Shown here in pieces: positions 5,852 to 20,764 of a stretch of DNA of 47,427 nt. The stretch covers positions 1 through 47,427 of the IMG/VR virus record IMGVR_UViG_3300028284_000012, one strand, 5' to 3'. Both the position numbers and the translations under genes were made by a program. Under the pieces are notes generated by a model. It saw only the letters and a list, made by a program, of their open reading frames with translations, did no database searches and was not told the origin of the DNA. Positions within the stretch are counted from its first letter, which is position 1, and every line of letters starts with the position of its first letter. The stretch is from a virus.

Positions 5852-6108
5852 AAGCAGTAGGTAAGTATATAGTTATAGATCCTATCAAAGAAGTTGATAC
5901 GACTACAAAAGGAGGTTTAATTCTAGCTGAAAAGCAAAGAGAAGATATAAGATACAGAAGAGCTAAGGTTGTAGAACCTGGCTCTGATGTAGAAGTATTA
6001 AAAAAAGGTGATGAAGTTTATTATGACAAATCAGCTGGATTTAATATTGAAATAAATAAAGAAAACTATAAAGTCATTAAAGAGTTTGATATAGTTATTA
6101 TTTTATGA
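5848..6108 (+). CDS. groS: Phage-encoded co-chaperonin GroES
   Basis: 86 residues, slightly shorter than the bacterial 95-100. It starts GKYIVIDPIKEVDTTTKGGL, in which TTTKGGLIL (18-26) is the mobile loop with the Gly-Gly-hydrophobic motif that contacts the GroEL apical domain. The GDEVYYDKSAG segment and the C-terminal NYKVIKEFDIVIIL match the GroES barrel and last strand. The start overlaps the groEL stop (ATGA) and the stop overlaps the next ATG (ATGA), so the three genes are coupled. It caps the phage GroEL ring, and perhaps the host ring. Confidence 0.95.
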   Translation: MKAVGKYIVIDPIKEVDTTTKGGLILAEKQREDIRYRRAKVVEPGSDVEVLKKGDEVYYDKSAGFNIEINKENYKVIKEFDIVIIL

Positions 6109-6533
6109 GAAGATTAACATCTGGTGATTTAAAAGAACTAGGTTTACTCAAGCATTATAGAATAATAAGGAAATGGGCTTGTAAGACTAATGAATTAACA
6201 GATGCAGATCTAGAGCTACTAATTTACTTAGATGCTATAGATATGTTTACTAAAGATGATTTTAAAAAAGGTACGTACTCATTCAGCTGGGATAACAGGC
6301 GCTGGAACAGATTATTGAAACAAGGGTGGATTACAGTGTGGCGGAAAAGAAACCACACCACTCAAAAATATCATATATATAAAGTTTCCTATAAGTGCAA
6401 ACAGCTGATAAGTCGCATGTACCGTGTTATGTTAGGCGAAGAAAACATGCCTACAACTAAATTAGAAAATAGTAATAGATATAGTTACAAAGTAATAACA
6501 AAAGCAATTGAATATGCCAACAAAGACAAATAA
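6105..6533 (+). CDS. Probable small winged-helix-like protein
   Basis: 142 residues. The pattern of helices (KWACKTNELTDADLELLIYL, then TKDDF) followed by WNRLLKQGWITVWRKR and HIYKVSYKCKQLISRMYR resembles MarR/PadR-like winged-helix folds, where the WITVWR segment would form the wing strand. Similar sequences are common small genes in marine phages, as I recall, and are normally unannotated. It is coupled to groES by ATGA. A regulatory or nucleic-acid-binding role is inference from fold pattern and basic charge only. Confidence 0.7.
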   Translation: MRRLTSGDLKELGLLKHYRIIRKWACKTNELTDADLELLIYLDAIDMFTKDDFKKGTYSFSWDNRRWNRLLKQGWITVWRKRNHTTQKYHIYKVSYKCKQLISRMYRVMLGEENMPTTKLENSNRYSYKVITKAIEYANKDK

Positions 6534-7068
6534 ATCACCGCTACATATATCACCTGGAATGATAATGACTATTGGTAAGGGAATCCTTGGTGTTTCAGCT
6601 AGCAACTTAAGTAACATGCCAACTGAGTTTAAGCAGATAAGAGAAGAGGGTAAAGGTAATAGATCTTTCGGTGGATTTTTAAAAGGCACAGGTAGACTAC
6701 TTTTAACTTCTGGTCAGTCAACCATTAGTGGTTTATCAAAAGGCGTTTTAGGTACTGACTTTGGTTTAGGTCAAAAAGGTTATCTCGCTGATAATATACC
6801 TAAGACACCTCAAGAAGAAGCAGCTGAATCTGCTAAAAAATATTCAACTAATATAGATTTATATGGTGAAGAAAATTTACCAAATCAAGATTTAGTAAAC
6901 CCAACTGGAACATCAAATATAACAAATATGAAACCATTTAAACAATTAACACAAAACGAAGGTAATACAGCAAAAAACATGAGCGCTTTTCAATATAAGA
7001 GCGGTTTGAAAATGTCTGTAATATCTGGGTCTTCTAACTTACCAATGAGATCATCTTTAAAAATGTAA
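6514..7068 (+). CDS. Unknown protein ending just before an EF-hand-like tail
   Basis: 184 residues from ATG 6514; a TTG two codons upstream (6508) is possible but less likely. It overlaps the preceding gene by 20 bases. Gly/Ser-rich N-terminal half with a hydrophobic stretch (GMIMTIGKGILGVSA), a middle with QEEAAESAKKYST, and a C-terminus of short repeats such as FQYKSGLKMS and MRSSLKM. Such M-[KR]-S-x-L-K-M endings in marine phage proteins are often followed by an acidic Ca-loop-like segment, and exactly that is encoded in frame immediately after the TAA stop. The protein may therefore be truncated by one point change or extended by readthrough. Confidence 0.7.
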   Translation: MPTKTNKSPLHISPGMIMTIGKGILGVSASNLSNMPTEFKQIREEGKGNRSFGGFLKGTGRLLLTSGQSTISGLSKGVLGTDFGLGQKGYLADNIPKTPQEEAAESAKKYSTNIDLYGEENLPNQDLVNPTGTSNITNMKPFKQLTQNEGNTAKNMSAFQYKSGLKMSVISGSSNLPMRSSLKM

Positions 7069-7155
7069 GATTTATCCGGAGACGGTAAAAAAACAATGAA
7101 AGATGTGTTAATAGGTAGAGGAGTTATAGATAAAGAAGGAAACAAAATTAAATAA
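7069..7155 (+). pseudogene. In-frame EF-hand-like tail downstream of a stop codon
   Basis: Directly after TAA (7066-7068), the same frame stays open for 28 codons to TAA at 7153-7155. The first twelve residues, DLSGDGKKTMKD, fit the EF-hand/dockerin calcium loop: Asp1, Ser3, Asp5, Gly6, Thr9, Asp12. They are followed by VLIGRGVIDKEGNKIK. A single base (T7066 to A) would turn the stop into Lys and fuse it to the upstream protein. It could be a recent nonsense mutation, a sequencing error, programmed readthrough, or a separate 19-codon ORF from the internal ATG at 7096. Confidence 0.6.
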
Positions 7156-7161
7156 ATAATT

Positions 7162-7314
7162 ATGCCAAGTTACGGAGAATATCAAAAACCTGCGGGAGTA
7201 TTAAAATCTTGCGGATGTGACAGTATGTGTGAATGCCATACTAAAAAGAACATACCAGGTATTGAGAACAACATACCTTACAAAGGTAACGCTGTTCTTA
7301 ACGCTAACAAATAG
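7162..7314 (+). CDS. Small Cys-rich protein
   Basis: 50 residues from ATG 7162 to TAG 7314. The feature to note is SCGCDSMCECH at residues 17-27: a C-x-C-x4-C-x-C-H arrangement able to bind a metal such as zinc. The rest (IPGIENNIPYKGNAVLNA) is uncharged and without a membrane segment. It lies five bases before the next small ORF in a run of tightly packed short genes, which supports expression. Function unknown. A second CxC miniprotein occurs at 8765-8908. Confidence 0.65.
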   Translation: MPSYGEYQKPAGVLKSCGCDSMCECHTKKNIPGIENNIPYKGNAVLNANK

Positions 7315-7319
7315 TGGTT

Positions 7320-7478
7320 ATGCAAGACTTGAAGCTGTATTTGTTAAACGCTTCTTCATTTACTCTAGCTAGTATGAACTGGATAGAGCCAGCGTTAGAA
7401 GTTATACTACTAATGTTGACTATTGGATACACTGTACATAAGTGGATGCTACTACATAAGAAATATGATAATAAGTAA
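7320..7478 (+). CDS. Small single-span membrane protein, lysis-cassette candidate
   Basis: 52 residues from ATG 7320. One strong hydrophobic helix (ALEVILLMLTIGYTV, residues 25-39) is followed by a basic tail (HKWMLLHKKYDNK), an N-out/C-in topology by the positive-inside rule. It overlaps the M15 endopeptidase start by 14 bases. Its position right before the lysin gene makes a holin, pinholin or holin regulator plausible, though the sequence alone does not prove it. Confidence 0.65.
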   Translation: MQDLKLYLLNASSFTLASMNWIEPALEVILLMLTIGYTVHKWMLLHKKYDNK

Positions 7479-7923
7479 GCATATATCATATAAAGAAGCT
7501 ACAAGATCTATAACAGCTAAGAGATTAGGTGTAGAGAACGCTCCTAGTGAAGAGCATGTAACTAATATGCAGATTTTAGCAGAGAAAGTATTTGAGCCTC
7601 TTAGAACTCACGTAGGCAAGCCTATTTGCATTAATAGTATGTACAGATCAAGTGATCTTAACAAAGCTATAGGTGGGAGTAAAACTTCACAGCACTGTAA
7701 AGGCCAAGCTATGGATGTAGACGATAAGTATGGTCATGCTACTAACGCTGAGATGTTTGAGTTTATAAAAGATAATTTAAGTTTTGATCAATTAATATGG
7801 GAGTTTGGTACAGACGATAATCCAGACTGGATACATATTAGTTATGTGTCAGAAGAAAAGAATAGGAATATAATGCTTAAAGCATATAAGAATAAAGGTA
7901 GAACTGCATACAAAAAAATATAA
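7465..7923 (+). CDS. M15-family peptidase endolysin
   Basis: 152 residues from ATG 7465. A TTG at 7423 extends the frame but would overlap most of the previous gene. It is a zinc D-Ala-D-Ala carboxypeptidase-type (peptidase M15) lysin: residues 75-86 read SQHCKGQAMDVD, giving zinc ligands His77 and Asp84, and WIH at 122-124 gives the third ligand His124. The preceding INSMYRSSDLNKAIGG matches the family's substrate-loop region. No signal peptide is present, so export would need a holin; candidate membrane proteins flank it. It would cut the peptide stem or crossbridge of the host wall. The family call is firm; the exact bond cleaved is not visible. Confidence 0.92.
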   Translation: MIISKHISYKEATRSITAKRLGVENAPSEEHVTNMQILAEKVFEPLRTHVGKPICINSMYRSSDLNKAIGGSKTSQHCKGQAMDVDDKYGHATNAEMFEFIKDNLSFDQLIWEFGTDDNPDWIHISYVSEEKNRNIMLKAYKNKGRTAYKKI

Positions 7924-8325
7924 ATGAAAATATCTGAGTCAACTGAATTTAAAATTGATTTAAAAACTGTAATTGGTATAATAATGTTAACAACCACTTT
8001 AGTTGGTATGTACTACACATTGCAAGAGGATATACAGTTAGCTAAGACATTGCCACCTGTAGAGGTAGAAAGATTAGAATACGATTTAAAAGAACAGTGG
8101 AACAAGCAGAATATAGATGAACTTATAGAAAGAGTTGACATGCTTGAAGAAGCTAATGATATTTTAAAAGAAGAAATTAAGATAACTTCATCGATGTTAC
8201 AAGATGGTACTAAAGCAGATGACAAGTTTGAAGAGTTAAACAGGCAGTTAGAAGAATTACAAAACAAAAAACCTAAAACAACTGTTATAGTTAAAGAAGT
8301 TCAAGTAAGTAAGAAACGAAGATAA
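7924..8325 (+). CDS. Membrane-anchored coiled-coil protein, spanin-like
   Basis: 133 residues. A single N-terminal membrane helix (TVIGIIMLTTTLVGMYYTL, about residues 15-33) is followed by a long charged helical region (ERLEYDLKEQWNKQNIDELI, then ERVDMLEEANDILKEEIK and KFEELNRQLEELQNK) and a short basic end. This is the arrangement of an inner-membrane spanin or Rz-like protein. It starts immediately after the lysin stop. No partner lipoprotein with a lipobox was found nearby, so a two-component spanin is unproven; a virion or holin-accessory role is the alternative. Confidence 0.65.
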   Translation: MKISESTEFKIDLKTVIGIIMLTTTLVGMYYTLQEDIQLAKTLPPVEVERLEYDLKEQWNKQNIDELIERVDMLEEANDILKEEIKITSSMLQDGTKADDKFEELNRQLEELQNKKPKTTVIVKEVQVSKKRR

Positions 8326-8477
8326 TGGGGTATAGTGCAATACAAAAAAAGAAAAAAGATTCCTGCTGGCCAGGCTATGTAGCTAAAGGTAAGAAGAAAT
8401 CACCTAGCGGTAAAAAAACTAAAGGTGGTAAAGCTAAAATGGTTAATAACTGCGTTAAAGTAGGTAAAAAGAAATAA
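8325..8477 (+). CDS. Small Lys-rich protein with two Cys
   Basis: 50 residues from ATG 8325 (TAATG overlap with the gene before) to TAA 8477. About 20 residues are Lys. Short landmarks are KKDSCWPGYVAKG at 11-23 and MVNNCVKVG near the end, a pattern I recall from small proteins of marine phages. The two Cys could pair or bind metal. The next ATG follows without a gap. Function unknown; charge suggests nucleic acid or virion association. Confidence 0.7.
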   Translation: MGYSAIQKKKKDSCWPGYVAKGKKKSPSGKKTKGGKAKMVNNCVKVGKKK

Positions 8478-8762
8478 ATGTATACTCAACCAAGTAGCCC
8501 TTTTGAAAAGAAAGGTAAACTAAGAAAAACTACCAAAGGTAAGGGCCGTAACTTCAGGACAACTGAAGAAGGTGCTGGTATGACTGCTAAAGGAGTTAAA
8601 GAGTATAGGAAGAAAAACCCAGGTAGCAAGCTTAAGACTGCTGTAACTGGAAAAGTAAAACCAGGTAGTAAAGCTGCTAAAAGAAGAAAGTCTTTTTGTG
8701 CTAGATCTAAAAGTTGGACTAGTGAAAGAGGTAAAGCTGCTAGACGTAGATGGAAGTGTTAA
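8478..8762 (+). CDS. Small basic conserved protein (DUF5872-like)
   Basis: 94 residues, roughly a third Lys or Arg. The core GAGMTAKGVKEYRKKNPGSK, then LKTAVTGKVKPGSKAAKRRK, SFCARS and the C-terminal ERGKAARRRWKC are typical of a widespread small-protein family seen in phages and large viruses that I associate with DUF5872; the number is from memory. No enzymatic residues are apparent. It begins directly at the stop of the previous Lys-rich gene. Nucleic-acid binding or virion packaging is likely but inferred. Confidence 0.75.
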   Translation: MYTQPSSPFEKKGKLRKTTKGKGRNFRTTEEGAGMTAKGVKEYRKKNPGSKLKTAVTGKVKPGSKAAKRRKSFCARSKSWTSERGKAARRRWKC

Positions 8763-8764
8763 TT

Positions 8765-8908
8765 ATGGAGTCAAAAGGTTTAGGAGATACAATAGAAAAG
8801 ATAACTACTGCAACAGGTATAAAAGCTATAGCTGATAAAATACCAGGTGGATGTGGATGCGCTAAGCGTAAAGAAAAATTAAACAAAGCTTTTCCTTATA
8901 AAAAATGA
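8765..8908 (+). CDS. Small protein with Gly-Gly-Cys-Gly-Cys motif
   Basis: 47 residues from ATG 8765. It starts GLGDTIEKITTATGIKAIAD, predicted as one amphipathic helix, and then has PGGCGCAKRKEKLN (27-40), a CxC motif followed by a basic helix. The arrangement is a recurring small gene in marine phages as I recall, with no assigned role. The stop TGA overlaps the following ATG (ATGA at 8905-8908), which supports translation. Confidence 0.7.
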   Translation: MESKGLGDTIEKITTATGIKAIADKIPGGCGCAKRKEKLNKAFPYKK

Positions 8909-9228
8909 GTTTTAAATTAAAATCACCTTATAACATAGATAATACTCCTATATACTTTGTAGAAGAAGAAGACGGCGTTTTAGGTAGAACTAATATGAAC
9001 TGTAGCATTACTATAAATAGTAAAGTAAAAGATCCTAAGCAAGTAGAAAGCATTATAAAACATGAGAAAGTGCACGTTAAACAAATAAAAGACGGCAGAC
9101 TCGCTTATGACGATAACAATATTTACCATAGGAAAAATGGTAAAGGTAAATGGAAAGTTAAAAAAAGAAGTAAACAAGTGGATGGTTCTCCATTAAATTG
9201 GTGGGAAAAAGAAGCTTATAAAAAATAA
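8905..9228 (+). CDS. Putative small zinc metallopeptidase (HExxH)
   Basis: 107 residues. HEKVH at 53-57 is preceded by a hydrophobic SII and lies in a predicted helix, fitting the HExxH zinc motif. A C-terminal WWEKEAY (98-104) supplies a Glu in the position often used as third ligand in small gluzincin-like phage proteins. N-terminal strands (TNMNCSITINSK) precede the helix, as expected for a minimal zincin fold. No signal peptide. Substrate unknown; maturation of virion proteins or wall-related cleavage are possibilities. The catalytic reading is inference from the motif. Confidence 0.6.
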   Translation: MSFKLKSPYNIDNTPIYFVEEEDGVLGRTNMNCSITINSKVKDPKQVESIIKHEKVHVKQIKDGRLAYDDNNIYHRKNGKGKWKVKKRSKQVDGSPLNWWEKEAYKK

Positions 9229-9231
9229 ACT

Positions 9232-9453
9232 ATGAACGAAGAAAAAGAAGAGCCTTATAAAACTATATACAGAAAAGATGGTTCAAAGAAAAAAGAGTAT
9301 TACGACATGGAGGGTGGCAAGTCAATGGTTGCTAAGTACGATAAAGATGAGGAGTTGAAAAAAACTAAAGTTAAAAGAAGCGGTTTACTAAATAAAGGGT
9401 CAATATCTCCAATAATGGCTAAATGTGGTTCTTATAGACACAGTAAAAAATAA
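9232..9453 (+). CDS. Unknown small charged protein
   Basis: 73 residues, highly charged (Lys and Glu dominate) with no membrane segment. YRKDGSKKKEYYDMEGGKSM near the centre, and GLLNKGSISPIMAKCGSYRH at the C-terminus including a single Cys. Not recognised. TAATG couples it to the holin gene, so it is likely part of the lysis and small-protein transcript. Confidence 0.65.
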   Translation: MNEEKEEPYKTIYRKDGSKKKEYYDMEGGKSMVAKYDKDEELKKTKVKRSGLLNKGSISPIMAKCGSYRHSKK

Positions 9454-9905
9454 TGGCTGAAAAGAAAAAGCTAAGAGAAACTAAAGTAGGGAGCTTTCTA
9501 GCTAGCAAAGCCCCTGCACTTCTCAAAAAGATAGGCGAGGTATTACCAGATAAAGGTGGTCTTGCGATAGTAAAAAATCTTATAACAAGTGATACTAAGA
9601 TTAAAGCTGTTGACAAGGAACAAGCAATGAAGCTTATAGAACAAGATATAACAGAGCTTAAAGAAATTTCAAGTAGATGGAGAGTTGATATGAAAAGTGA
9701 TTCGTGGTTAAGTAAAAATACTAGACCACTTACTTTAATATACTTAACATTTGCTTCAACAATATTAATAATAATTGACTCATTCCATACTATGTTTGAT
9801 GTAGACACTGCTTGGGTTGAATTATTGAAAACTTTACTGATTACAGTATATGTAGCGTACTTTGGTTCAAGAGGCGCTGAAAAAATTACAAAAATAAATA
9901 AATAA
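9453..9905 (+). CDS. Holin, 3TM (GTA-holin-like) family
   Basis: 150 residues. The N-terminal cytoplasmic part includes LPDKGGLAIVKNLI and the helical KEQAMKLIEQDITELKEISS, followed by SDSWLSKNTRPLTL, the hallmark of the holin family described for gene transfer agent release (3TM holin). Hydrophobic helices follow: LIYLTFASTILIIIDSF and LLKTLLITVYVAYFGSRGA. It should oligomerise in the inner membrane to release or activate the M15 lysin encoded about 1.5 kb upstream. The family call is good by motif. Confidence 0.85.
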   Translation: MAEKKKLRETKVGSFLASKAPALLKKIGEVLPDKGGLAIVKNLITSDTKIKAVDKEQAMKLIEQDITELKEISSRWRVDMKSDSWLSKNTRPLTLIYLTFASTILIIIDSFHTMFDVDTAWVELLKTLLITVYVAYFGSRGAEKITKINK

Positions 9906-9910
9906 ATAAA

Positions 9911-10225
9911 ATGGCAGTAAAAGGATTAGCAGGTAATTTTCAAGCACAACCTAGAGTTTTTGCTCATGATGCTGTGGGATTAACAGCCGCTCAAATAAAT
10001 TCTGGAACTTATGTTATACCAGGAACTGAAAGTAGAGGAGTTTGCTTGTACGTGGGTAAAGCGATGGATACTATAACTGTAACTATGGAAAGTGGTTCTA
10101 CACCAGTGATATTCAAAGGTATCAATGCTGGGTCTTTCTTACCTATATTAGTTACTTCAGTTATAGGTGCACTTCCTTCAGATTCAGTAACTTTAGCAGA
10201 TAACGATATACTAGTATTATACTAA
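9911..10225 (+). CDS. Small beta-rich virion protein, spike/decoration-like
   Basis: 104 residues, Gly/Ser/Thr/Val rich with predicted strands throughout. The segments VYVGKAMDTITVTMESGS-like and VIFKGINAGSFLPILVTSVI, ending DNDILVLY, match a pattern common in small phage spike-base or decoration proteins, where a PVIFKGI-type strand precedes LP and the C-terminus ends in a D-I-x-x-L-Y/W strand. No catalytic residues. It lies directly before the LamG adhesin genes (three-base gap), so it may be their base or attachment partner. Confidence 0.65.
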   Translation: MAVKGLAGNFQAQPRVFAHDAVGLTAAQINSGTYVIPGTESRGVCLYVGKAMDTITVTMESGSTPVIFKGINAGSFLPILVTSVIGALPSDSVTLADNDILVLY

Positions 10226-10228
10226 GAT

Positions 10229-11419
10229 ATGTTTATAGGTATAGCTGGTACAATACCTAATTTACCAAATTTACCTGGTCAAGGTGGAGGTGGTGGAGTA
10301 GAGGTTCTTTTAGAGTATGATTCATCTAGTTTTTGTAAAGTAACAAATCCAAACTTAATTTCACCTACCGTAGCTGAGCCTGCTGGTGGTACTTTTTCTT
10401 ATACTGGTACAGGAACTTTAGGTATAGTACCAAATAGTGGTTTAATAAATGTTTTCGAGTCTGACTCTGGAAGTTACACTATAACTTACTCTGTTGGCGG
10501 ATCTTCTTCTAGCTTTCCTATAGCCATAGGAAACGAAATAATACTTTCTATAACGACTTCTCCTGGAGCTACAATATGCACAGGTGATACAGCTACTTTA
10601 ACTGCTAATGCTTCTGGTGGTTCTGGTGGTTTTACTTATTCTTGGGATACAAGCCCAGTTCAAACTATTCAATCTATAGATGTAACTACTTCTGGAAATT
10701 ACACCGTCACTGTTACGGACAGTGATGGTTGTTCCGTTTCAGCTGTACAGCAAATAACAGCTTCAACAAATGCAACTGCAATAGCTAGTATTAATAACGA
10801 TGCTGCTATGAGTTTTAATGGAACAGATTCTTATATAGATGCGGGAACTGGTTTAGGAAATTCTTTGGGCAATTCTTATAGTGGTGATTTAAGTATTTCG
10901 ATATGGTTTAAAGCTACGTCAATAGGAACGGCTCCTGGACTATTTTCTATTAATAATGGCAATGGTCTTTTTGGTCCTATACAAATATATTTTTTTAATA
11001 ATAGATTATATTTTAGAGTTCAACCAACTCAATCAGGTTGGAATTATATTAGTATTCCTTTTACAGATACAACAAGTTGGCATCATTTAACCGTTGTTTA
11101 TAAGTCAGGTAGTCAATCCAATTCTAAAATGTATTTAGACGGTGCTGATACTTCTACAAATTCTGGTGGTTCATTTCCAACAACATTAGATTTTGATGGT
11201 ATTAAAACTTTAATTGGCTACTATTTTTCTGATTCTTATCTTTTCAATGGCTCTATAGATGAAGTAGCAGTTTGGGATTCAGCATTAAGCTCTTGTGATG
11301 TTAAAGGAATACACGACGCTACAGTTACAGTAAATGGTCAGCCTAAGTCAGCTAACTTATTAGATACAAATACAACAATACCAGCTCCGGTATATTGGAA
11401 CAGAATGGGAGATAGTTAA
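10229..11419 (+). CDS. Adhesin with two Ig/PKD-like domains and one LamG-like domain
   Basis: 396 residues. After a Gly-rich linker come an Ig-like domain (about 30-105; FCKVTNPNLISPTVAEPAGG, then GSYTITYSV) and a PKD/SprB-like repeat (about 113-178; CTGDTATLTANASGGSGGFT, then GNYTVTVTDSDGC). The latter style is characteristic of Bacteroidetes surface and gliding adhesins. A LamG/concanavalin-like domain follows (about 190-372): AMSFNGTDSYIDAG, ISIWFK, WHHLTVVY, MYLDG, GSIDEVAVWDSAL. It ends PVYWNRMGDS, the same terminal motif as the next protein. Probably a host-binding appendage component; the domains may have been acquired from hosts. No signal peptide, as expected for a virion part. Confidence 0.85.
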   Translation: MFIGIAGTIPNLPNLPGQGGGGGVEVLLEYDSSSFCKVTNPNLISPTVAEPAGGTFSYTGTGTLGIVPNSGLINVFESDSGSYTITYSVGGSSSSFPIAIGNEIILSITTSPGATICTGDTATLTANASGGSGGFTYSWDTSPVQTIQSIDVTTSGNYTVTVTDSDGCSVSAVQQITASTNATAIASINNDAAMSFNGTDSYIDAGTGLGNSLGNSYSGDLSISIWFKATSIGTAPGLFSINNGNGLFGPIQIYFFNNRLYFRVQPTQSGWNYISIPFTDTTSWHHLTVVYKSGSQSNSKMYLDGADTSTNSGGSFPTTLDFDGIKTLIGYYFSDSYLFNGSIDEVAVWDSALSSCDVKGIHDATVTVNGQPKSANLLDTNTTIPAPVYWNRMGDS

Positions 11420-11429
11420 AAAATAGAAT

Positions 11430-14400
11430 ATGTCAGCAAAGTATAAAAGTCCAAGTTTTTTATTACCTAACGAGTTAAACACAAATACTAACCCGCTTAA
11501 TACGGATGGTAATCCTGCTACTGGTACTGGTATCAATAGTTTGTATTCTATGGATTTTGATGGAACAAACAACGTTGAATGTGGAAATATTTCAGCATTA
11601 AACGGAGCTACGCAAGCAACTTGGTCTTGTTGGTATAAAAGAACAGGTGGCGGTTCTACTTATTTTATGGGTAGTTGGGGGAATGGAGCAAATACAAAAC
11701 AATTTATTGCATATCAATTTGGCTCCCAAGGTGGTATGGATGTATATATGGGGAAAAATACCAGTGGTTCAAATGGAGAACATACAATGTTTCAAAATGT
11801 TAATTGTGGAATTAATCAAAATACTTGGCATCATATGGTTTTTGTTTTTGACGCGTCTGAGTCAAGCAATGCAGATAAATTAAAATTTTATCTTGATGGA
11901 ACGCAAATAACTAATACTTCAGCTGGCGGTTCTTTAACATCTTTAAATAGTGTAACAACAGATTTTATATTAGCAGCCCCGCTTTCATCAGGTAAGTTAA
12001 CTGGAAACCTTGACGAAGTAGCTGTATTCAACAGAGCTTTAAATACTACAGAAATAGCTGCACTATATGGAGGGACTAGTCCTAACATATATCCATCTAA
12101 CTTAATGGCTACAGATTTAAATCCTATAGCTTACTATCCATTAGGTGAGCAAGCACAAAACTCTGGTTATTTTGGTAATACAACTCCAGCTAATAATGTA
12201 TGGCAATTTCCAAATGGTGTATTGCAAGATTATGTAATGGATTTTGATGGAACAGGTAAAATAGACGCTGGAATTATTTCATCATTAAATAATGCTTCTG
12301 AATTTACTATATCAACTTGGGTTAAGTTAAATGATTTAACTAATAATTATAGAATATTTGGAAATAGAGAGTCTAGCTCACCTTATAAAGGTTTAGGTGT
12401 TGAAACAGGTAGTTCATCTAATGCAGGAAAACTTTTCTTTTATAGTATGAGTAATAATGGAGCTTATCCAAGCGTTGGTATAACTATGTCTAATGAAGGA
12501 ATAACTGCTAATAATTGGTTTCTTTTAACTTGTAAATACAAAAACTCTACACAAGAAATATTTATAAACGGAAGCTCAACTACAGTAACTTCTGGAAGTA
12601 AAACTTCAAATGTTGCCTCTACCACAGACACTACTACAGCTAATTTTTTAATTGGGGCTGACTCTATTTCGTCTTCAGGAAAATTAAATGGAGAATTAAG
12701 TAACTTTCAAATATTTAATACAGGTATTGACTCTACAGGATCTAACTCAATACAAACTATATACAACAACGGTTCTCCACTTACAGATATGTCAGGGTTT
12801 ACTTCTTTGACAAACTGGTGGAAACTAAATGCAGATTCTGTTTATACGCCTAGTGTGTCTAAGTATCCAACAGCTTTAGAATTTCCCGGCAATGCTGGAG
12901 CAAGTGAAATTAACACTGGAGTAATTTCAAGCTTAAATAATGCAAGTGCTTTTACTGTTTCTTTTTGGATGCTAAGAACCGCCACGCATAGTACTTTAAA
13001 TCCATTCTTTTTTGGGAATAGAGATTCTTCAAATAGTTACAAGGGTATTGCTTTTTATATGGGTAGAGATTCTCCATCTATTCGAACTCACGGTTTCTAC
13101 GTATATAGCGTTTCTGGCGGATATGCTTTTTATGAATTTCCAGCAAATTATTTTAGAGAATTAAATACTTGGCACCATGTTGTTTTAACTTGGGATACTT
13201 CAAGAACTCCTAATATGTTTGTTGGTTATTGGAATGGTGGTAATGCGGTTAGTAGTAACGGAACTCCTCCTGATACAAGTATTACTCAAACTGTGTCAAC
13301 TGGTGATTTTCACATTGGTACTGACTGGGCAAACACATCCCACTTTGGTGGTCAAATGTCAAATTTTGCAATATATGACTCAGCTTTAACTGCTGATCAA
13401 GTGTCAACGCTATTTAATTTTGGAACTCCAGAAGTTAATACATCTTTCTCTCCTACACATAATTGGAAATTAGATAATCTCACAACTGGGTTAAACGATG
13501 TAGGCTCATTAGCAAGTAATGATGGAAGTGATATAGCAGTAGTTGAAGTTAACAGTAATGTTGCTACTATCCCATCTTGGAAAATACCAAGTGAATTACC
13601 TATTACAAGTGCAAATTATACAACGGCTTTAGATTTTGATTCTGCAAGTAGTGATTATATAGATTGTGGTAATGATGCAAGTTTTAATTTTGGTACAGGA
13701 GATTTTACAGTTAGTTCTTGGATAAATATTTCAAGCGGAAATAGTTCTTATAGATGGATTTTTGGTTATGGACGAACTACAGGTCTTGAAATAGGTTTAC
13801 ATAATACAACTAATAATAATTTAAGATTATGGATTGCAGGTAGTCTATTAATTTCAAGTGAAAGCATAAGTTCAGATACTTGGCATAATTTAATTGTAAA
13901 AAGAGAAAGCGGTTCAATTTCAGCATTTTTAGATAATACTTCTTTAACACTTTCAGGAAGTGGAGGTGCTGGAAGTATTAGTAATGACAATGCTTATATT
14001 GGTGCTTGGGGTAGTGGAGTGGAAGATTATTTTGATGGCTCTATTTCAAATGTAGCAGTATATAACTCAGCTTTAACAGCTCCACAAGTTTCAACTTTAT
14101 ACAATAACGGAACACCTGAAACAGCTATTAGCTTTTTACCTGTTAGTTGGTGGAAATTAGATACTGGAGGTTCTACAATAACAGATTATGGTTCTGGTGG
14201 AAATACTGGAAATAATAACGGAGCTTCACCAATAACATCCGATGTATTAACTACTCAACCAGTAAATGGAGTAAGTACAACTTTACCAAGTACAGCTTTA
14301 CAACAAAGTGATTTACAATTTGATTCACCATATAGTAACTATAGTTTAAGTTTTGATGGAACGGGACAGTATATAAATTGTGGAACAAGTAATATTTCTG

Positions 14401-15767
14401 AACTACAAGTCTTAAGCTTGTCTTGTTGGTTTAAAGAAGTTGATTCATCAAATACAGGAACAAGAGCTATTATAGCTAACAAAAATTACTCAAGCAATAA
14501 TGGAGTTGCTTTATGGATTTTTGGGTCAGATTTAATTTTTCAAATTGCCGCTCAGAATGATAATCTTTCTTGGAATAATAGTAGAGTTGTTATATTTAGA
14601 AATTACGCTCCAATAGGTTCTTGGAACCATATATCTTGCACTTATGACGGTGCAGATGCTAAAATATACATTAATGGCGTATTAAGAAATACTTGGACGC
14701 CTACGCAGCCTTACACAGTTTATTATTCTCCTACATACAATGAATTAAGAATAGCTAATAGATCAGATACCACTGGTGCACCTTTTGTAGGTAAAATAGA
14801 CGAAACTGCTATTTTTAACACAGCTTTAACAGAAGCTCAAGTATTAGAAATATATAATAATGGTAGACCAAAAGATCTAACTACTTTCTCTGGAACTGCA
14901 CCTATTTCTTGGTGGAGGCTTGGTGAAAACGCTTATTTTATAAATAACGATATTACATTACCTAATTCAGTGTCTGGAGCACCTAATGGCGTAAGCTCTG
15001 GAACTGCTACTTCGATGCTATCAGCTGATGCGCCTGGAACTTATGCTAATGGTATAGGAGATGGTTTAGCTGTCACAGATCGTGTAGGAGAAGCTCCTTT
15101 ATCAGTTGCTAACTCACAGAGTTATAATATGATTCCAGATGACAAAGTACCTTATGTACCTGGATATGTTGGAGCACAAACTACCAACGCCTCTGAAATG
15201 ACATTTAACGGAGTGGATTCTTTCTTTGATACTGGAAACATAGATTTAGGAATCAACTCTACTTTATCAATGTGGTTTAAGCCTGGTACTAGTCCAGCTG
15301 TAAATGATTACGCTTTAATTGGTGAAGGTTCTAATGGTTTTGATTATTTAGTTAGAAGGGAAAGTGGAAAATTTTATATTTGGGTTGGATCTAGTTTTCA
15401 CAATTACGGATCAGTAATATCTAACAATATAATTGTTGGTAGTTGGAATTTTTTAGCAATACAAAAAGCTGGAGATACAATAACTGTTTATTTGAAAAAT
15501 ACAAATGGAGAATTTAACGCAACAGCTACTAATTCTGCATGGGCTACAACTTCTATGACTTTTGATAGAATAGGTTCTAGAACCATATCTCCACCTGCGC
15601 AAGTGTTCAGTGGCCAAATAGATGAAGTAGCAGGTTTTAGCGAGGCTTTAACGCCTGATCAGATTAAATTTGATTTATACAAAGCAACAACAACAGGTAA
15701 AACAGCAGATATAGAAAATAATACTAACCTACCAACGCCAGTGGCTTGGTACAGAATGGGAGATTAA
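11430..15767 (+). CDS. Giant adhesin with six LamG-like domains
   Basis: 1445 residues. Six LamG/concanavalin-like modules begin near residues 40, 270, 481, 732, 971 and 1255. Each starts with a strand such as SMDFDGT, VMDFDGT, ALDFDSA or SLSFDGT, followed by a W-containing strand (SCWYK, STWVK, SSWIN), a W-H/N-x-hydrophobic core strand, a Y-L/I-D/N-G turn, and a closing NVAVYNSALT-like segment. Between modules is a recurring link ending WWKL or YYPLG. It ends AWYRMGD, like the flanking proteins. LamG folds bind glycans or proteins, so this is a likely receptor-binding appendage. Copies differ greatly in sequence, implying old duplication and diversification. Length is far above a normal fibre. 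Confidence 0.88.
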   Translation: MSAKYKSPSFLLPNELNTNTNPLNTDGNPATGTGINSLYSMDFDGTNNVECGNISALNGATQATWSCWYKRTGGGSTYFMGSWGNGANTKQFIAYQFGSQGGMDVYMGKNTSGSNGEHTMFQNVNCGINQNTWHHMVFVFDASESSNADKLKFYLDGTQITNTSAGGSLTSLNSVTTDFILAAPLSSGKLTGNLDEVAVFNRALNTTEIAALYGGTSPNIYPSNLMATDLNPIAYYPLGEQAQNSGYFGNTTPANNVWQFPNGVLQDYVMDFDGTGKIDAGIISSLNNASEFTISTWVKLNDLTNNYRIFGNRESSSPYKGLGVETGSSSNAGKLFFYSMSNNGAYPSVGITMSNEGITANNWFLLTCKYKNSTQEIFINGSSTTVTSGSKTSNVASTTDTTTANFLIGADSISSSGKLNGELSNFQIFNTGIDSTGSNSIQTIYNNGSPLTDMSGFTSLTNWWKLNADSVYTPSVSKYPTALEFPGNAGASEINTGVISSLNNASAFTVSFWMLRTATHSTLNPFFFGNRDSSNSYKGIAFYMGRDSPSIRTHGFYVYSVSGGYAFYEFPANYFRELNTWHHVVLTWDTSRTPNMFVGYWNGGNAVSSNGTPPDTSITQTVSTGDFHIGTDWANTSHFGGQMSNFAIYDSALTADQVSTLFNFGTPEVNTSFSPTHNWKLDNLTTGLNDVGSLASNDGSDIAVVEVNSNVATIPSWKIPSELPITSANYTTALDFDSASSDYIDCGNDASFNFGTGDFTVSSWINISSGNSSYRWIFGYGRTTGLEIGLHNTTNNNLRLWIAGSLLISSESISSDTWHNLIVKRESGSISAFLDNTSLTLSGSGGAGSISNDNAYIGAWGSGVEDYFDGSISNVAVYNSALTAPQVSTLYNNGTPETAISFLPVSWWKLDTGGSTITDYGSGGNTGNNNGASPITSDVLTTQPVNGVSTTLPSTALQQSDLQFDSPYSNYSLSFDGTGQYINCGTSNISELQVLSLSCWFKEVDSSNTGTRAIIANKNYSSNNGVALWIFGSDLIFQIAAQNDNLSWNNSRVVIFRNYAPIGSWNHISCTYDGADAKIYINGVLRNTWTPTQPYTVYYSPTYNELRIANRSDTTGAPFVGKIDETAIFNTALTEAQVLEIYNNGRPKDLTTFSGTAPISWWRLGENAYFINNDITLPNSVSGAPNGVSSGTATSMLSADAPGTYANGIGDGLAVTDRVGEAPLSVANSQSYNMIPDDKVPYVPGYVGAQTTNASEMTFNGVDSFFDTGNIDLGINSTLSMWFKPGTSPAVNDYALIGEGSNGFDYLVRRESGKFYIWVGSSFHNYGSVISNNIIVGSWNFLAIQKAGDTITVYLKNTNGEFNATATNSAWATTSMTFDRIGSRTISPPAQVFSGQIDEVAGFSEALTPDQIKFDLYKATTTGKTADIENNTNLPTPVAWYRMGD

Positions 15768-15768
15768 T

Positions 15769-18700
15769 ATGAGTACAAAGTTTTTAAGTCCAGGCTGGCG
15801 AATGCCAAGAAATGCTAATCAGAGTAAAATTTCTAATTATAGTATTGAAAGTGTTTCAAATGTTACAGGATTTGTAAAAATACCTGGCCTAGCAAATAGT
15901 TTAAACTTAACAGATAAAGTTAGTATATCTATTTGGTGGAAAACTAGTACATTTCAAAATAACAGGTACATTATGGGTTTTAAAGGTCCAACCACTGCTA
16001 ATGGTTTTGATTTAGGAATGCATGGTAGTAATATTATATCATACGCTGCTTTTTCTGGTTCAAGTAGTGGAAACCCAACAGTAAATTTTGCTTACGATGA
16101 CGGTAATTGGCATCATTATGTTTTAACTTATAACGGAAGTATTCGTAAATTATATATAGATGGTATTTTAAAAGCAGAATCAGCGGCTTCTGGAAATATG
16201 TTGCTAGACTCTAACGGAGATTTTTATATGCTTGGAACTAATGCAGGTGCGTATGGTGGCATAGGCAAAGCAGTTGACAATTGTGTTTTTGATTATGCTT
16301 TATCAGATGGTGGTGTTTCAGTTGGTAGTACAGCCACTGGTCAAATAGCTGATCTTTATGGTGATGGTTTATCATTGCCTAATCCTATGGCTTTACCAAC
16401 CCCACCTATCGCTTATTATCCTTTAGGTACATCTGCTTGGAACGGACAATATTTAGCTGAAAACAATGCTATTGGAGATTATGTTTTTGATTTTGTTGGT
16501 ACTTCATCTCAAGAAATTAGCTTAACAACTAGTAACTTGCCAAGTGCAAATTCTTCTTTTAGTATGTCTGTTTGGTTAAATAGAGATTCTACAGTTCCAT
16601 CCTATGCAGGGGTTTTAAGCTTTGGAGATTTAGGATCAACAAATGTATTATCAATGGCTTATATTAATTTTGACACAAGCAATAACATTAAATATGGTTT
16701 TTACAATGGAGATGCTGGAAATACCGCAATATCAGCTAACAATTGGCATCACGTTGTTTTAACTTATAATGGAACAAATGCTACTTTTTATATAAATGGA
16801 CAAGTTGTCGGAATCCCAACCCAGCCAGGAACACTAGCTATACCTACTACAAGTACATTAAAAATTGGCGGTTTAAATACCTCAGCACAAACTTTTAACG
16901 GTAAAATTTCAAATGCTCAAATATTTAACGCAGTATTATCAGGACCAGAAGTAGAAACTCTTTATAACTACGGTTCACCAATACAAACTTTAGCTAATAT
17001 ACCTCAAAGCTCTAATCTTAAAGCTTGGTATAAACTCGATGCAACTGAGATTTATAATAGTACAAGTACAGAGTGGAGTGTAGATAATAATAAATATCCT
17101 TCTGCTTATCCAAGTTCTTTAAGTTTTGTACCTAATGATTATATAAATTGTGGAAGTCCAAGCTCTTTAGATTTTGAAAGAACAGATGCCTTTAGTATTT
17201 CAGCTTGGGTTAAAAGAGTTGGTTCAGGTTCTTATCAGTCCATAGTTTATAAAGCAAATAATAACAGTCCTTATAATGGTTACGCTTTTTATATAGATAA
17301 TAATAACAAAGTTGGGTTTAATATAACAATAGATTATACTTCAAATAATTATTTTGGTAAAGTTTGTACTTCTGTATTAAACACCGATTGGAATAATGTA
17401 TTAATAACTTACAACGGAAATTCTAATGTGTCTGGAGTAAATATTTATATAAATGGTAGTTTACAAACTGTTACCACAGTAGGAACTTCATCTGATTTAA
17501 CAGGTACATTATCAAATTCAATACCTTTTAATATAGGTGCAAGAAATAATACTGACGTTTTTCTTGATGGTAAACTTTCAAACACTCAAGTATTCAACAC
17601 GGCACTACCAGAAACAGGTTCTAACTCAGTAGAAACTATTTACAATAATGGAGCTCCTTTAACTGATATGAGCTCATTTAGTTCTTTGGTTTCTTGGTGG
17701 AAATTAAACAACACAACTACAGGTATTGGCAACTATTTAAGCAACTATACAACAGCGGTTGATTTTAACTATCTCAACACTGACTATCTTAGTTTAGGTA
17801 CGATGTCTACTTTATCGGCTGAAGCAGAGGTTACTTTTTCTATTTGGGCTAAAATAACAAAACCTGGTGGAACACAAGGTTTTAGTATGATTTATACTGA
17901 TAACTCTGACGGAGGAACTGGTAATAAAGGTACTATATTTATAGAACCTAGTGGAAATAATGCTAGAGTTAAGTGTACTTTAAGAAACACAAGCTCACTA
18001 AGGACTTCACTAGTTAACCACACGACCTTCAATAGTTGGCATAATATCACAGTAACATTTGGAACTACCTATGCTAAACTATACCTAAATGGACAACTGC
18101 AAGATACTGAAGCAGTGGGTACAGCTGCAAATTTAGGTGTAAATGCTTTTTTAGGTAGGTACTCAAGTACTAGTCCAGTTTATGCTACTGGTGGACTTTT
18201 AAGTAATTTTGCAATATTTAATTCTGAATTATCAGGTCCACAAGTCTTAACACTTTTTAACGGTGGAACTCCAGAAACCAGTATTTCTTTTTCTCCTGTA
18301 CATCACTGGAAACTAAATGATATTAACACAGGTTTAAATGACATAGGCTCATTAGCTAGCAACAACGCAACTCGTGGAGCAGCTGCTACAGGAACAGTTA
18401 GTTTAGGCCCAACAACTGCATCAAGTCTTGTTTCATCATTAAGCGGAACTAACAACGGAGCTACTGAATATGCTGGCTTTGTAAATACATTAGCTGGCGA
18501 TAGCACAGGAATGTCTCAATCAAACCTTGTTCAAAGTGACTTACAAACAGTTGCACCTTATAGTAAATATGCTATGAGTTTTGATGGATTATCAGATAAA
18601 ATAGATTGTGGTGTTTCTCCATTTGACGAAACAACTGGTGATATTACTATATCTGCTTGGGTTAAAAGAACAGCTGCAGCAGCTACATACGCACCTATAG

Positions 18701-19380
18701 TATCAGCAACTCAAGGTGTTGGTGGTGCTGATACTCAGTTTTCGTTTCAGTTTTATGGCAATTCATTAAGTCTCTTTTGGAAAGGCTTAACTGGTGGTGA
18801 TAACGAAATTGTACCTACTTCAGCTTTTACTGTTGCAAACGATGTTTGGTATTTAGTAAATTTTGTTAGAACTGGAACAACTGGTAGATTTTATGTTAAT
18901 GGAAATTTAATTCATCTATCCACTAAGACTTATGACGATTTTATTTCTACTGGTATACCAAATTTAAGTATAGGCGCTTGGTGGTTTTCAAGCAATGTAA
19001 GCGTTACTGGAAGTATATCAAATGTTTCAATCTGGAATACAGCTTTAACACCTGCACAAGTTAGAGAAATTTATAATCAAGGTAGTCCTAGCAATCTACA
19101 TAACTTTTCCGGCACAGCTCCTATAGCGTGGTGGCAGTTAGGTGAAAATAGTAGTTTCAATGGAAATGATTGGATATGTGCAGACGAAATAGGATCAAGC
19201 AATGGAGAAAGTGATGATATGGGTGTAAACGCTTTAACAAACGGCGTAGGTACAACAGCTAATGGAGTATCCACTGGAATGTCAGAAGGTAATTTAGTAG
19301 GTGATGCACCATATAGTACGGGTAATGCAATATCAAGTGGGATGCCGGTTACAGCTAGAGGAACAGATGTACCGTCGTAA
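15769..19380 (+). CDS. Giant adhesin with five LamG-like domains
   Basis: 1203 residues, paralogous to the preceding gene, starting one base after its stop. Five LamG-like modules begin near residues 25, 238, 450, 661 and 933, each with the SFDG-type first strand, SIWW/SAWVK strand, W-H-H/N core strand and closing N-F/S/A-I-F/W-N segment. Links include WWKL, AYYPLG and WKLNDINTGLNDIGSLASNN; the last is nearly identical to WKLDNLTTGLNDVGSLASND in the upstream protein, pointing to shared cassettes. The C-terminal ~120 residues after WWQLGENSSF are Gly/Ser/Asn rich with repeated STGMS/GNLV motifs. Likely a receptor-binding appendage subunit. Confidence 0.88.
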   Translation: MSTKFLSPGWRMPRNANQSKISNYSIESVSNVTGFVKIPGLANSLNLTDKVSISIWWKTSTFQNNRYIMGFKGPTTANGFDLGMHGSNIISYAAFSGSSSGNPTVNFAYDDGNWHHYVLTYNGSIRKLYIDGILKAESAASGNMLLDSNGDFYMLGTNAGAYGGIGKAVDNCVFDYALSDGGVSVGSTATGQIADLYGDGLSLPNPMALPTPPIAYYPLGTSAWNGQYLAENNAIGDYVFDFVGTSSQEISLTTSNLPSANSSFSMSVWLNRDSTVPSYAGVLSFGDLGSTNVLSMAYINFDTSNNIKYGFYNGDAGNTAISANNWHHVVLTYNGTNATFYINGQVVGIPTQPGTLAIPTTSTLKIGGLNTSAQTFNGKISNAQIFNAVLSGPEVETLYNYGSPIQTLANIPQSSNLKAWYKLDATEIYNSTSTEWSVDNNKYPSAYPSSLSFVPNDYINCGSPSSLDFERTDAFSISAWVKRVGSGSYQSIVYKANNNSPYNGYAFYIDNNNKVGFNITIDYTSNNYFGKVCTSVLNTDWNNVLITYNGNSNVSGVNIYINGSLQTVTTVGTSSDLTGTLSNSIPFNIGARNNTDVFLDGKLSNTQVFNTALPETGSNSVETIYNNGAPLTDMSSFSSLVSWWKLNNTTTGIGNYLSNYTTAVDFNYLNTDYLSLGTMSTLSAEAEVTFSIWAKITKPGGTQGFSMIYTDNSDGGTGNKGTIFIEPSGNNARVKCTLRNTSSLRTSLVNHTTFNSWHNITVTFGTTYAKLYLNGQLQDTEAVGTAANLGVNAFLGRYSSTSPVYATGGLLSNFAIFNSELSGPQVLTLFNGGTPETSISFSPVHHWKLNDINTGLNDIGSLASNNATRGAAATGTVSLGPTTASSLVSSLSGTNNGATEYAGFVNTLAGDSTGMSQSNLVQSDLQTVAPYSKYAMSFDGLSDKIDCGVSPFDETTGDITISAWVKRTAAAATYAPIVSATQGVGGADTQFSFQFYGNSLSLFWKGLTGGDNEIVPTSAFTVANDVWYLVNFVRTGTTGRFYVNGNLIHLSTKTYDDFISTGIPNLSIGAWWFSSNVSVTGSISNVSIWNTALTPAQVREIYNQGSPSNLHNFSGTAPIAWWQLGENSSFNGNDWICADEIGSSNGESDDMGVNALTNGVGTTANGVSTGMSEGNLVGDAPYSTGNAISSGMPVTARGTDVPS

Positions 19381-19440
19381 AAAAAGATTAAAACAAGTAA
19401 ATATATAAATAACAAGTAATTAACAAATAACAATTAAACA

Positions 19441-19692
19441 ATGGCAACAACTTATGTAGTAATTAACTTATCTGATACAAACGCTGTTTTGTTCAGTCAA
19501 GTGAATCAGTCTTCTGCTCAAACAATGAGAAGAAACATAGCTAACACAGAGGGTGTTTTGTCTTTTCAGGTAGAGCCTAGCTTTATTACAAACGGTTCGT
19601 TGACACCTGTTGGGACTTATACTCATGAAGAGATACTAGTCTTACTAGCTACTCCAGAATGGACACCTGCTGAACCAGAACCAGGAGAATAA
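19441..19692 (+). CDS. Small unknown protein after adhesin genes
   Basis: 83 residues. A beta-prone N-terminus (TTYVVINLSDTNAVLFSQVN) is followed by a helix, then GSLTPVGTYTHEEILVLLAT and an acidic Pro-rich tail (PAEPEPGE). The general form, a short beta domain with a Trp-Pro and acidic end, is like the small protein at 3644-3904 behind the other fibre gene, although sequence identity is low. That parallel position suggests a fibre accessory role. The ATG is preceded by an A-rich 60-base leader (contains aacaagtaa twice) with no G/C-rich signal. Confidence 0.65.
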   Translation: MATTYVVINLSDTNAVLFSQVNQSSAQTMRRNIANTEGVLSFQVEPSFITNGSLTPVGTYTHEEILVLLATPEWTPAEPEPGE

Positions 19693-19720
19693 ATAAAAAC
19701 AAACAATTAAATTAAATCAA

Positions 19721-19969
19721 ATGAAAATTAAAGAAGAAGAATTATTATTAATTCAAGAGCAACAAAAACAGCTTAACGAGTTAGTTCACAACATCGGATT
19801 ATTAGAAAGCCAAAAGCATGGACTACTTCATGAAATAGCTGGAGCTAATAAAGAAATAGAAGATTACAAAGAGGTTTTAGAAGCTGAGTATGGTGCTATC
19901 AACATCAATGTTGAAGATGGTGTTTATACTAAGATAGAAGAAGATGTCGAAAGTAATAAGGAAGATTAG
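19721..19969 (+). CDS. Small coiled-coil protein
   Basis: 82 residues, almost entirely helical and charged: EEELLLIQEQQKQLNELVHN, then IGLLESQKHGLLHEIAGANK, ending with an acidic tail (EEDVESNKED). The heptad pattern predicts a coiled coil through about residue 55, followed by a short EYGAININVEDG beta turn. Similar proteins occur near structural genes of marine cyanophages and others, from memory, with no assigned function. Its 3' end overlaps the next gene by 26 bases. Confidence 0.7.
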   Translation: MKIKEEELLLIQEQQKQLNELVHNIGLLESQKHGLLHEIAGANKEIEDYKEVLEAEYGAININVEDGVYTKIEEDVESNKED

Positions 19970-20171
19970 TATAGGTTCTGACTACAAGAACGATGCAATG
20001 CATTATTCAACTGGTCAGGAAGTGTACGGTGGACATACTATTAGTGATATTCTTTTTGAAGATCAAGATCAGTCATATAATATTTTTATAACTAAAAATA
20101 ATGAAGTCTTGCCTTGGAAAAAGTTTAATGCTAATATGGCAATATCTGTAGAGTACGATTTAAAGTACTAA
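19944..20171 (+). CDS. Unknown small protein upstream of GroES-like gene
   Basis: 75 residues from an ATG inside the end of the coiled-coil gene. Landmarks are KISIGSDYKNDAMHYSTGQE, GGHTISDILFEDQ and NNEVLPWKKFN. Aromatic-rich, no membrane segment, no recognised motif. TAATG links it to the GroES-like gene. The compact overlap with both neighbours supports that it is translated; its conserved-looking block order suggests a structural accessory or regulatory miniprotein. Confidence 0.65.
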   Translation: MSKVIRKISIGSDYKNDAMHYSTGQEVYGGHTISDILFEDQDQSYNIFITKNNEVLPWKKFNANMAISVEYDLKY

Positions 20172-20764
20172 TGAAAAGCTTATATAGCTTTATTGTAAAA
20201 CCTTTAAATGAAAGGTATGACAATGTTAAAAAAGTTGATGATAAAACACTCATCATTAATACAGGTATTGAAAACCATAGGTTTGTTAGTAAAAAAGCTG
20301 CTGTTGTATCTACTCCAGCGGCTTACACCTCAAAGATAAAAGTAGGTGATGAGCTTTATGTACATCACAATATATTTAGAAGATGGTATGATCAAAAAGG
20401 TAATGAAAGAAATAGTTCAACCTTTTTTAAAGATGACTTATACTTTGTTTCACCAGAACAAATATACATGTATAATCTTAAACCACATCTAGATTATTGT
20501 TTTGTTAAACCACTTAAAAACCAAAACTTATTAGAGAACAGGAAAGAGCAACCTAACGTTGGTGTAATGAAATATAGTAATAGTTCATTAGAAGCGCTAG
20601 GGATCACTCCTGGAACACTTATTACGTTTACCCCAAATTCTGAGTTTGAGTTTGTTATTGAAGGTGAACGACTTTATTGTATGAAATCAAATGATATAGC
20701 TTTAACTCATGAATACCAAGGAAACGAAGAAGAAAATAATCCAAGCTGGGCAAAAAGCAGTTGA
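20171..20764 (+). CDS. Tandem GroES-like domain protein
   Basis: 197 residues that read as two GroES-type barrels. First half (about 1-105): SFIVKPLNERYD at the start, AAVVSTPAAYTSKIKVGDEL then YVHHNIFRRWY, and a last strand YFVSPEQIYMYN. Second half (about 106-180): DYCFVKPLKN, NVGVMKYSN, GITPGTLITFTPNSEFEF and LYCMKSNDIAL. These follow the GroES order of N-terminal VKPL strand, V-x-x-P/N strand, GD/GT-L-hydrophobic strand and terminal D-I strand. It is separate from the true groES at 5848 and sits one gene before TerS/TerL. It may be a capsid-folding co-chaperonin like T4 gp31 or a GroES-fold virion protein. Fold call is inference from pattern. Confidence 0.6.
   Translation: MKSLYSFIVKPLNERYDNVKKVDDKTLIINTGIENHRFVSKKAAVVSTPAAYTSKIKVGDELYVHHNIFRRWYDQKGNERNSSTFFKDDLYFVSPEQIYMYNLKPHLDYCFVKPLKNQNLLENRKEQPNVGVMKYSNSSLEALGITPGTLITFTPNSEFEFVIEGERLYCMKSNDIALTHEYQGNEEENNPSWAKSS

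Follow-up and report, generated by a model that had tools for sequence, protein, structure and literature searches.

In T-even phages, the gp38 adhesins carry hypervariable segments placed between conserved glycine-rich motifs, and recombination between these motifs swaps gp38 specificity (Tetart 1998 and Trojet 2011, as relayed in PMC12529663 and PMC8651126). In marine phages that are otherwise similar, the genes that vary most include those for tail fibres, lectin-like proteins and carbohydrate binding, as described for the metaviromic islands (Mizuno 2014, PMC3909814). The Hafunaviridae, which are archaeal viruses, possess a hypervariable, glycine-rich adhesin gene followed by the gene of a small protein, and their host range is better explained by adhesin type than by genome relatedness (PMC8651126). 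In phicrAss001, fibres are docked via short N-terminal peptides (PMC10172136). LamG matches also occur in cyanophages (S-PM2 and others), in proteins annotated as virion structural.

The locus described here lies in a 47,427-base record of an uncultured, podovirus-like marine phage; the whole of this stretch is referred to below as the window. Like gp38, the locus combines conserved motifs with exchanged variable segments; in the accounts of gp38 relayed above, however, the units are short loops of one small tip protein, whereas here they are whole LamG domains in three proteins, and the exchange reaches phages with unrelated portals and other gene slots. No member of the gp38 family with its glycine-rich motifs appeared among the Pfam and PHROG matches of the three genes. 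The metaviromic islands were shown as under-recruiting genes and domains (PMC3909814), whereas at the present locus single cassettes are resolved, their breakpoints located, silent sites tested and a constant frame recognized. The Hafunaviridae share with it the order of a hypervariable adhesin gene with a small gene after it, which does not imply kinship of the small proteins (PMC8651126). The likeness to phicrAss001 consists of crAss muzzle homologues in the window, and docking of the array is proposed by analogy, not from kinship of the fibres. The cyanophages are different phages, and their LamG matches to the window amount to single modules at 25-30% identity. What is new relative to gp38 and the islands is the use of whole-domain cassettes in several slots and in unrelated phage lineages, together with a dedicated small gene.

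The TerL, portal and structural genes of the window are nearest to those of Elemovirus, Cellulophaga, Maribacter and uncultured podovirus records. Among named phages, those that come closest by sequence matches rather than by a tree are Elemovirus, Cellulophaga, Tenacibaculum and Maribacter phages, and there is kinship with Flavobacterium phages as well. The window portal belongs to phrog_6547. The crAss muzzle protein is matched by PF25731 (4.4e-11) and PF25729 (6.1e-11) at 30733-34302 and 34335-36029, two adjacent genes of which the first holds the N-terminal part and the second MUZ_C. PHROG 14478 likewise extends across the two, which suggests that a pair of genes encodes the muzzle in this phage. 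The genome also encodes GroEL (4304-5851), adjoined by a GroES-sized gene (5848-6108), and a second GroES-like protein beside TerL (20171-20764), all of which are kept in relatives. A 2802-aa protein at 38444-46852, with no Pfam match and a weak PHROG match to a polynucleotide kinase (5.8e-06), stands where the relatives have a giant structural protein.

The array lies between the lysis genes and TerL. Its features are as follows (positions in the window; related loci bear L numbers; g2m1 denotes gene 2, module 1, and so on).

10229-11419, + strand: gene 1 (396 aa), an Ig-like region, then one LamG module and a constant C-terminus ending ...YWNRMGDS
10547-10816, + strand: weak SprB, Ig-like or Hoc-like region of gene 1 (sub-threshold Pfam; PHROG 2973)
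10835-11248, + strand: exchanged LamG body of gene 1, matching module 3 of a gene-3-type gene in L098
11430-15767, + strand: gene 2 (1445 aa), with constant N-terminus MSAKYKSPSFLLPNE, six LamG modules and constant C-terminus NTNLPTPVAWYRMGD
11559-12059, + strand: LamG module g2m1 (PF13385)
12255-12722, + strand: LamG module g2m2 (PF13385)
12903-13406, + strand: LamG module g2m3 (PF13385)
13647-14093, + strand: LamG module g2m4 (PF13385)
14355-14843, + strand: LamG module g2m5 (PF13385)
15255-15668, + strand: LamG module g2m6 (PF13385)
15769-19380, + strand: gene 3 (1203 aa), constant ends enclosing five LamG modules
15769-15843, + strand: N-terminal peptide of gene 3, MSTKFLSPGWRMPRNANQSKxSNYS, nearly the same in many relatives whose modules differ; candidate virion dock
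15868-16308, + strand: LamG module g3m1 (PF13385)
16354-16488, + strand: linker g3m1-g3m2, 82-93% nucleotide identity to L161, adjoining modules about 30% (aa)
16507-16953, + strand: LamG module g3m2 (PF13385)
16939-17073, + strand: linker g3m2-g3m3, 82-95% nucleotide identity to L161, adjoining modules about 30% (aa)
17137-17610, + strand: LamG module g3m3 (PF13385)
17776-18246, + strand: LamG module g3m4 (PF13385)
18592-19014, + strand: LamG body g3m5, exchanged, matching module 4 of L161 (PF13385 at 18613-19062)
19078-19377, + strand: C-terminal tail of gene 3, WWQLGENSSFNGNDWICADEIG...GDAPYSTGNAISSGM, constant, partly disordered by prediction; some relatives carry other tails instead
19441-19692, + strand: 83-aa companion protein, encoded after the LamG array at nearly every locus; may be a fibre chaperone or adaptor

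The profile PF13385 (Laminin_G_3) recognizes exactly twelve modules in the window, all of them in these three genes, with scores of 55.9-85.3 bits against a curated cut-off of 27.6 (E 1.6e-16 to 1.4e-25). The preliminary description, made from the sequence alone, had placed one, six and five LamG modules in three adjacent genes; this distribution is borne out by the profile, its coordinates are correct, and the share of the window, put at a fifth, is 19.3%. The linkers that it reported as shared, GLNDVGSLASND and GLNDIGSLASNN, are both present. A WHH core strand, by contrast, is exact in five of the twelve modules, the others having WFL, WHN, WNH, WNF, WNN or WYL. The Ig/PKD-like domains attributed to gene 1 are plausible rather than firm, because the Pfam hits are sub-threshold (SprB 19.5 bits against 28; Ig_7 17.4 against 27.3) and the Hoc-like match to PHROG 2973 has E=3.5e-5.

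The LamG assignment also holds at the level of structure: for gene-3 module 5, the one module modelled (together with the tail), AlphaFold2 predicts a LamG/pentraxin beta-sandwich jelly roll, with pLDDT mostly above 90 within the domain. HMMER and Foldseek searches agree with this fold, matching pentraxins, neurexin, PAPP-A and a Bacteroides carbohydrate-binding protein. LamG domains can bind proteins as well as carbohydrates. Both large genes (2 and 3) match PHROG 8510, "virion structural protein".

These modules are hypervariable within a constant frame. For example, L093 is 94% identical to the window in TerL and 96% in the portal, yet its LamG genes are only 33-40% identical. Across 34 phage pairs with TerL at least 90% identical, the 83-aa protein has a median identity of 96%, the gene-3 N-terminus one of 90% and the C-terminal tail one of 68%, against 30% for modules in corresponding positions (29% over all pairs). 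Near-constant N-terminal peptides are found in genes 2 and 3, and constant C-terminal motifs in all three genes; genes 2 and 3 thus have the constant N-terminal part and variable distal part of a tail-fibre adhesin. The linkers are better conserved than the module bodies, silent sites included. Where TerL is at least 88% identical, the best-matching linkers show 64% amino-acid and 67% third-codon identity, against 34% and 45% for the bodies; between lineages A and B, whose TerL proteins share 67% of amino acids (48% of third positions), the linkers show 52% and 55%, and single pairs reach 70-76% third-codon identity.

The frame has its own variants. The constant gene-3 tail gives way to a glycine-rich end in L093 (11168-14317), L135 (7617-9968), L143 (1549-4641) and L144 (1-2403), and in the first three this end is nearly identical despite differing modules. 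In L101, the gene-1 slot is occupied by a protein of 1969 aa (4655-10561) that combines five DUF285 repeats with a LamG domain at its C-terminus, so this slot tolerates quite different N-terminal parts. A four-module LamG protein in L056 (3-3053) lies upstream of GroEL, outside the usual slot and with no 83-aa gene. In L106, the gene-3 homologue is present as two overlapping ORFs (148-1779 and 1734-2984), through a frameshift or a sequencing error.

The slot itself is one of tail-fibre or receptor-binding adhesins. Relatives that have no LamG genes carry there an S74 chaperone with BppL_N, YadA_head or DUF285 proteins, and in phi38:1 the slot has an S74 protein along with a putative tail protein. 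No carrier of either genes 2 and 3 or the 83-aa gene at full length was found in the phage-record collection, in which searches with genes 1-3 gave weak single-module matches or none, and nothing on point about LamG arrays of Flavobacterium or Cellulophaga phages was found in the literature. We consider that the three proteins are virion-attached, multivalent, lectin-type receptor-binding proteins diversified by exchange of single module bodies between phages, a reading to which we give a probability of roughly three in four. The multivalent glycan-binding appendage of the preliminary description remains the best reading because of the slot between the lysis genes and TerL, the adhesins that relatives have there, and the constant ends with hypervariable interiors; the virion location and the ligand are the parts of it that we infer. 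The proteins would be tail fibres or, less likely, head fibres, and their ligands would be surface glycans of marine Flavobacteriia-like hosts.

The proteins might instead be capsid decorations, either Hoc-like or head fibres, which grip mucus, particles or algal polysaccharide and have no part in the receptor-binding apparatus. Such a role would suit multivalent lectins, and it is consistent with the weak Hoc-like match in gene 1 and with the head fibres of phicrAss001, docked via short N-terminal peptides (PMC10172136). But the S74-chaperone fibres and YadA-type proteins of relatives in the same slot speak for adhesins, as does the extreme turnover, which is like that of the genes for host recognition in islands of marine phages (PMC3909814), and we regard the decoration role as unlikely.

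With regard to the origin of the variation, the data show exchange of single module bodies (about 130 aa) out of a pool common to the phages, and not recent duplication in place. When 285 modules from related contigs were compared, 31 of the 33 pairs with at least 75% identity between loci and with comparable neighbours had all of these neighbours below 50%; in an enlarged set of 316 modules, 33 of 38 pairs were isolated in this way, counts that refer to pairs and not to independent events (the profile was built from 28 non-overlapping pairs). The alignment breakpoints are abrupt and fall within the opening and closing strands of the LamG domain, at the module edges, so that variable segments are exchanged between conserved motifs as in gp38-type adhesins. 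The gene-1 body, for instance, shares about 97% of amino acids and 98% of third-codon positions with module 3 of the gene-3-type gene in L098, while its flanks share 22-31% and 28-47%; the whole gene-1 module is also 88% identical (aa) to one in L131. The body of g3m5 is 93% identical to L161 module 4 (98% at third-codon positions), with flanks at 57-80% (60-72% at third positions). Since the portal of the L098 group (phrog_33693) cannot be aligned to that of the window, exchange crosses unrelated structural lineages, and it crosses gene slots too. Clustering at 70% sorts the 316 modules into 275 groups, of which 244 are singletons; because exchange is thus visible in a minority of modules, most exchange partners are unsampled.

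The preliminary description proposed repeated cassette duplication, and here the evidence points elsewhere. Tandem duplication of one LamG cassette in place would explain why all modules have the fold, edge strands and linkers in common, why linker DNA of genes 2 and 3 is about 70-73% identical (D2, D4, D6), and why complete gene-3 homologues vary in module number, mostly between three and five (three modules in 13 genes, four in 21, five in 4). However, the window's twelve modules are 16-31% identical to one another, one same-genome pair with at least 45% identity was seen among the 285 modules, and the close matches sit in other phages, which makes such an origin of the array quite improbable. 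Recent in-place duplication is largely refuted by the low identity within the window and the cross-phage matches; older duplication of the framework is possible.

Chimeric assembly could also produce isolated module matches, and every comparison was made on contigs from metagenomes, a good many of them broken off within an array. But most matches are at 75-97% and not at 100%, they come from different samples and lie within intact ORFs, and two independent contigs match the gene-1 module of the window; we therefore consider chimeras very improbable. Lastly, although hypervariable lectin-like domains are the typical targets of diversity-generating retroelements, variation by such an element or by an invertible shufflon is scarcely credible here, as whole bodies differ and match other phages; no inverted repeats were found within 9900-20200, which counts against a shufflon, and no reverse transcriptase was found among the window ORFs scanned, in a record that is possibly incomplete.

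One small gene, that of the 83-aa protein, regularly comes after the array. Seventy-six loci offer 900 bases or more of sequence upstream of the 83-aa gene, and in 73 of them a LamG gene occurs within 400 bases. Among the 32 TerL-anchored relatives for which 3 kb or more of upstream sequence exist, 31 lack the LamG and 83-aa genes alike, and one has both. The protein is near-identical across many virome contigs, its family has a mean column identity of 73% (56 sequences), and 355 stretches in IMG/VR that encode relatives were matched. It has no sequence match in Pfam, PHROG or PDB and none in 50,697 phage records, and a scan of bacterial genomes returned no relative. Its predicted fold (pLDDT 75) finds nothing in PDB at E 0.001 or below, and its low-E-value matches are confined to uncharacterised proteins of uncultured viruses. 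Compared with lineage B, it is 96% identical in amino acids and only about 58-64% at third positions, which indicates strong purifying selection; a recent transfer as the source of the 96% identity was considered and dropped, given these third positions. The gene stays when the gene-3 C-terminal tail is replaced, so its partner is more likely to be the N-terminus or the modules than the tail. The 83-aa protein is probably a dedicated assembly partner of the array, perhaps acting as a chaperone or adaptor.

Taken together, the array might work as follows. In genes 2 and 3, the constant N-terminal peptide would probably serve as a dock that attaches the protein to the virion, by analogy with phicrAss001; several LamG beta-sandwich beads are strung by constant W[WY]xL linkers and closed by a constant C-terminus, whereas gene 1 has a single bead behind a variable N-terminal part. 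The swapped unit is the body of about 130 aa, which opens with the first strand and stops short of the last; it passes between co-occurring, perhaps co-infecting, phages, even where their portals are unrelated, and from one gene slot to another. The joints, structural and probably also recombinational, are the conserved edge strands and linkers. A bead swap would renew binding specificity while docks and joints keep working. The 83-aa protein encoded downstream would probably assist in assembly.

As for the joints, the conservation of the linkers makes homologous recombination within them likely. Raised silent-site DNA identity at the joints or edge strands of unrelated module pairs was looked for and not found, and strict DNA-homology-driven recombination at the joints is for this reason unproven. 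Alternatively, the sharp module edges could reflect selection for foldable junctions.

A wider reading is that lineages, some with unrelated portals, share a multi-slot frame (N-terminal docks, linkers, C-terminal tails and the 83-aa partner protein) and fill it from a very large LamG pool, forming a community-wide combinatorial lectin system; here we see the chances as evenly balanced. If this is true, the lectin repertoire would be almost independent of phage genome ancestry. The swapping of modules between constant connectors probably allows the host-gripping surface to be rebuilt quickly. The variation of metaviromic islands is thereby resolved to single lectin-domain cassettes with measurable joints, and the 83-aa gene provides a compact marker for finding LamG arrays in viromes. 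Both the speed at which host recognition is rebuilt and the travel of modules between unrelated phages with common hosts have thus been made testable.
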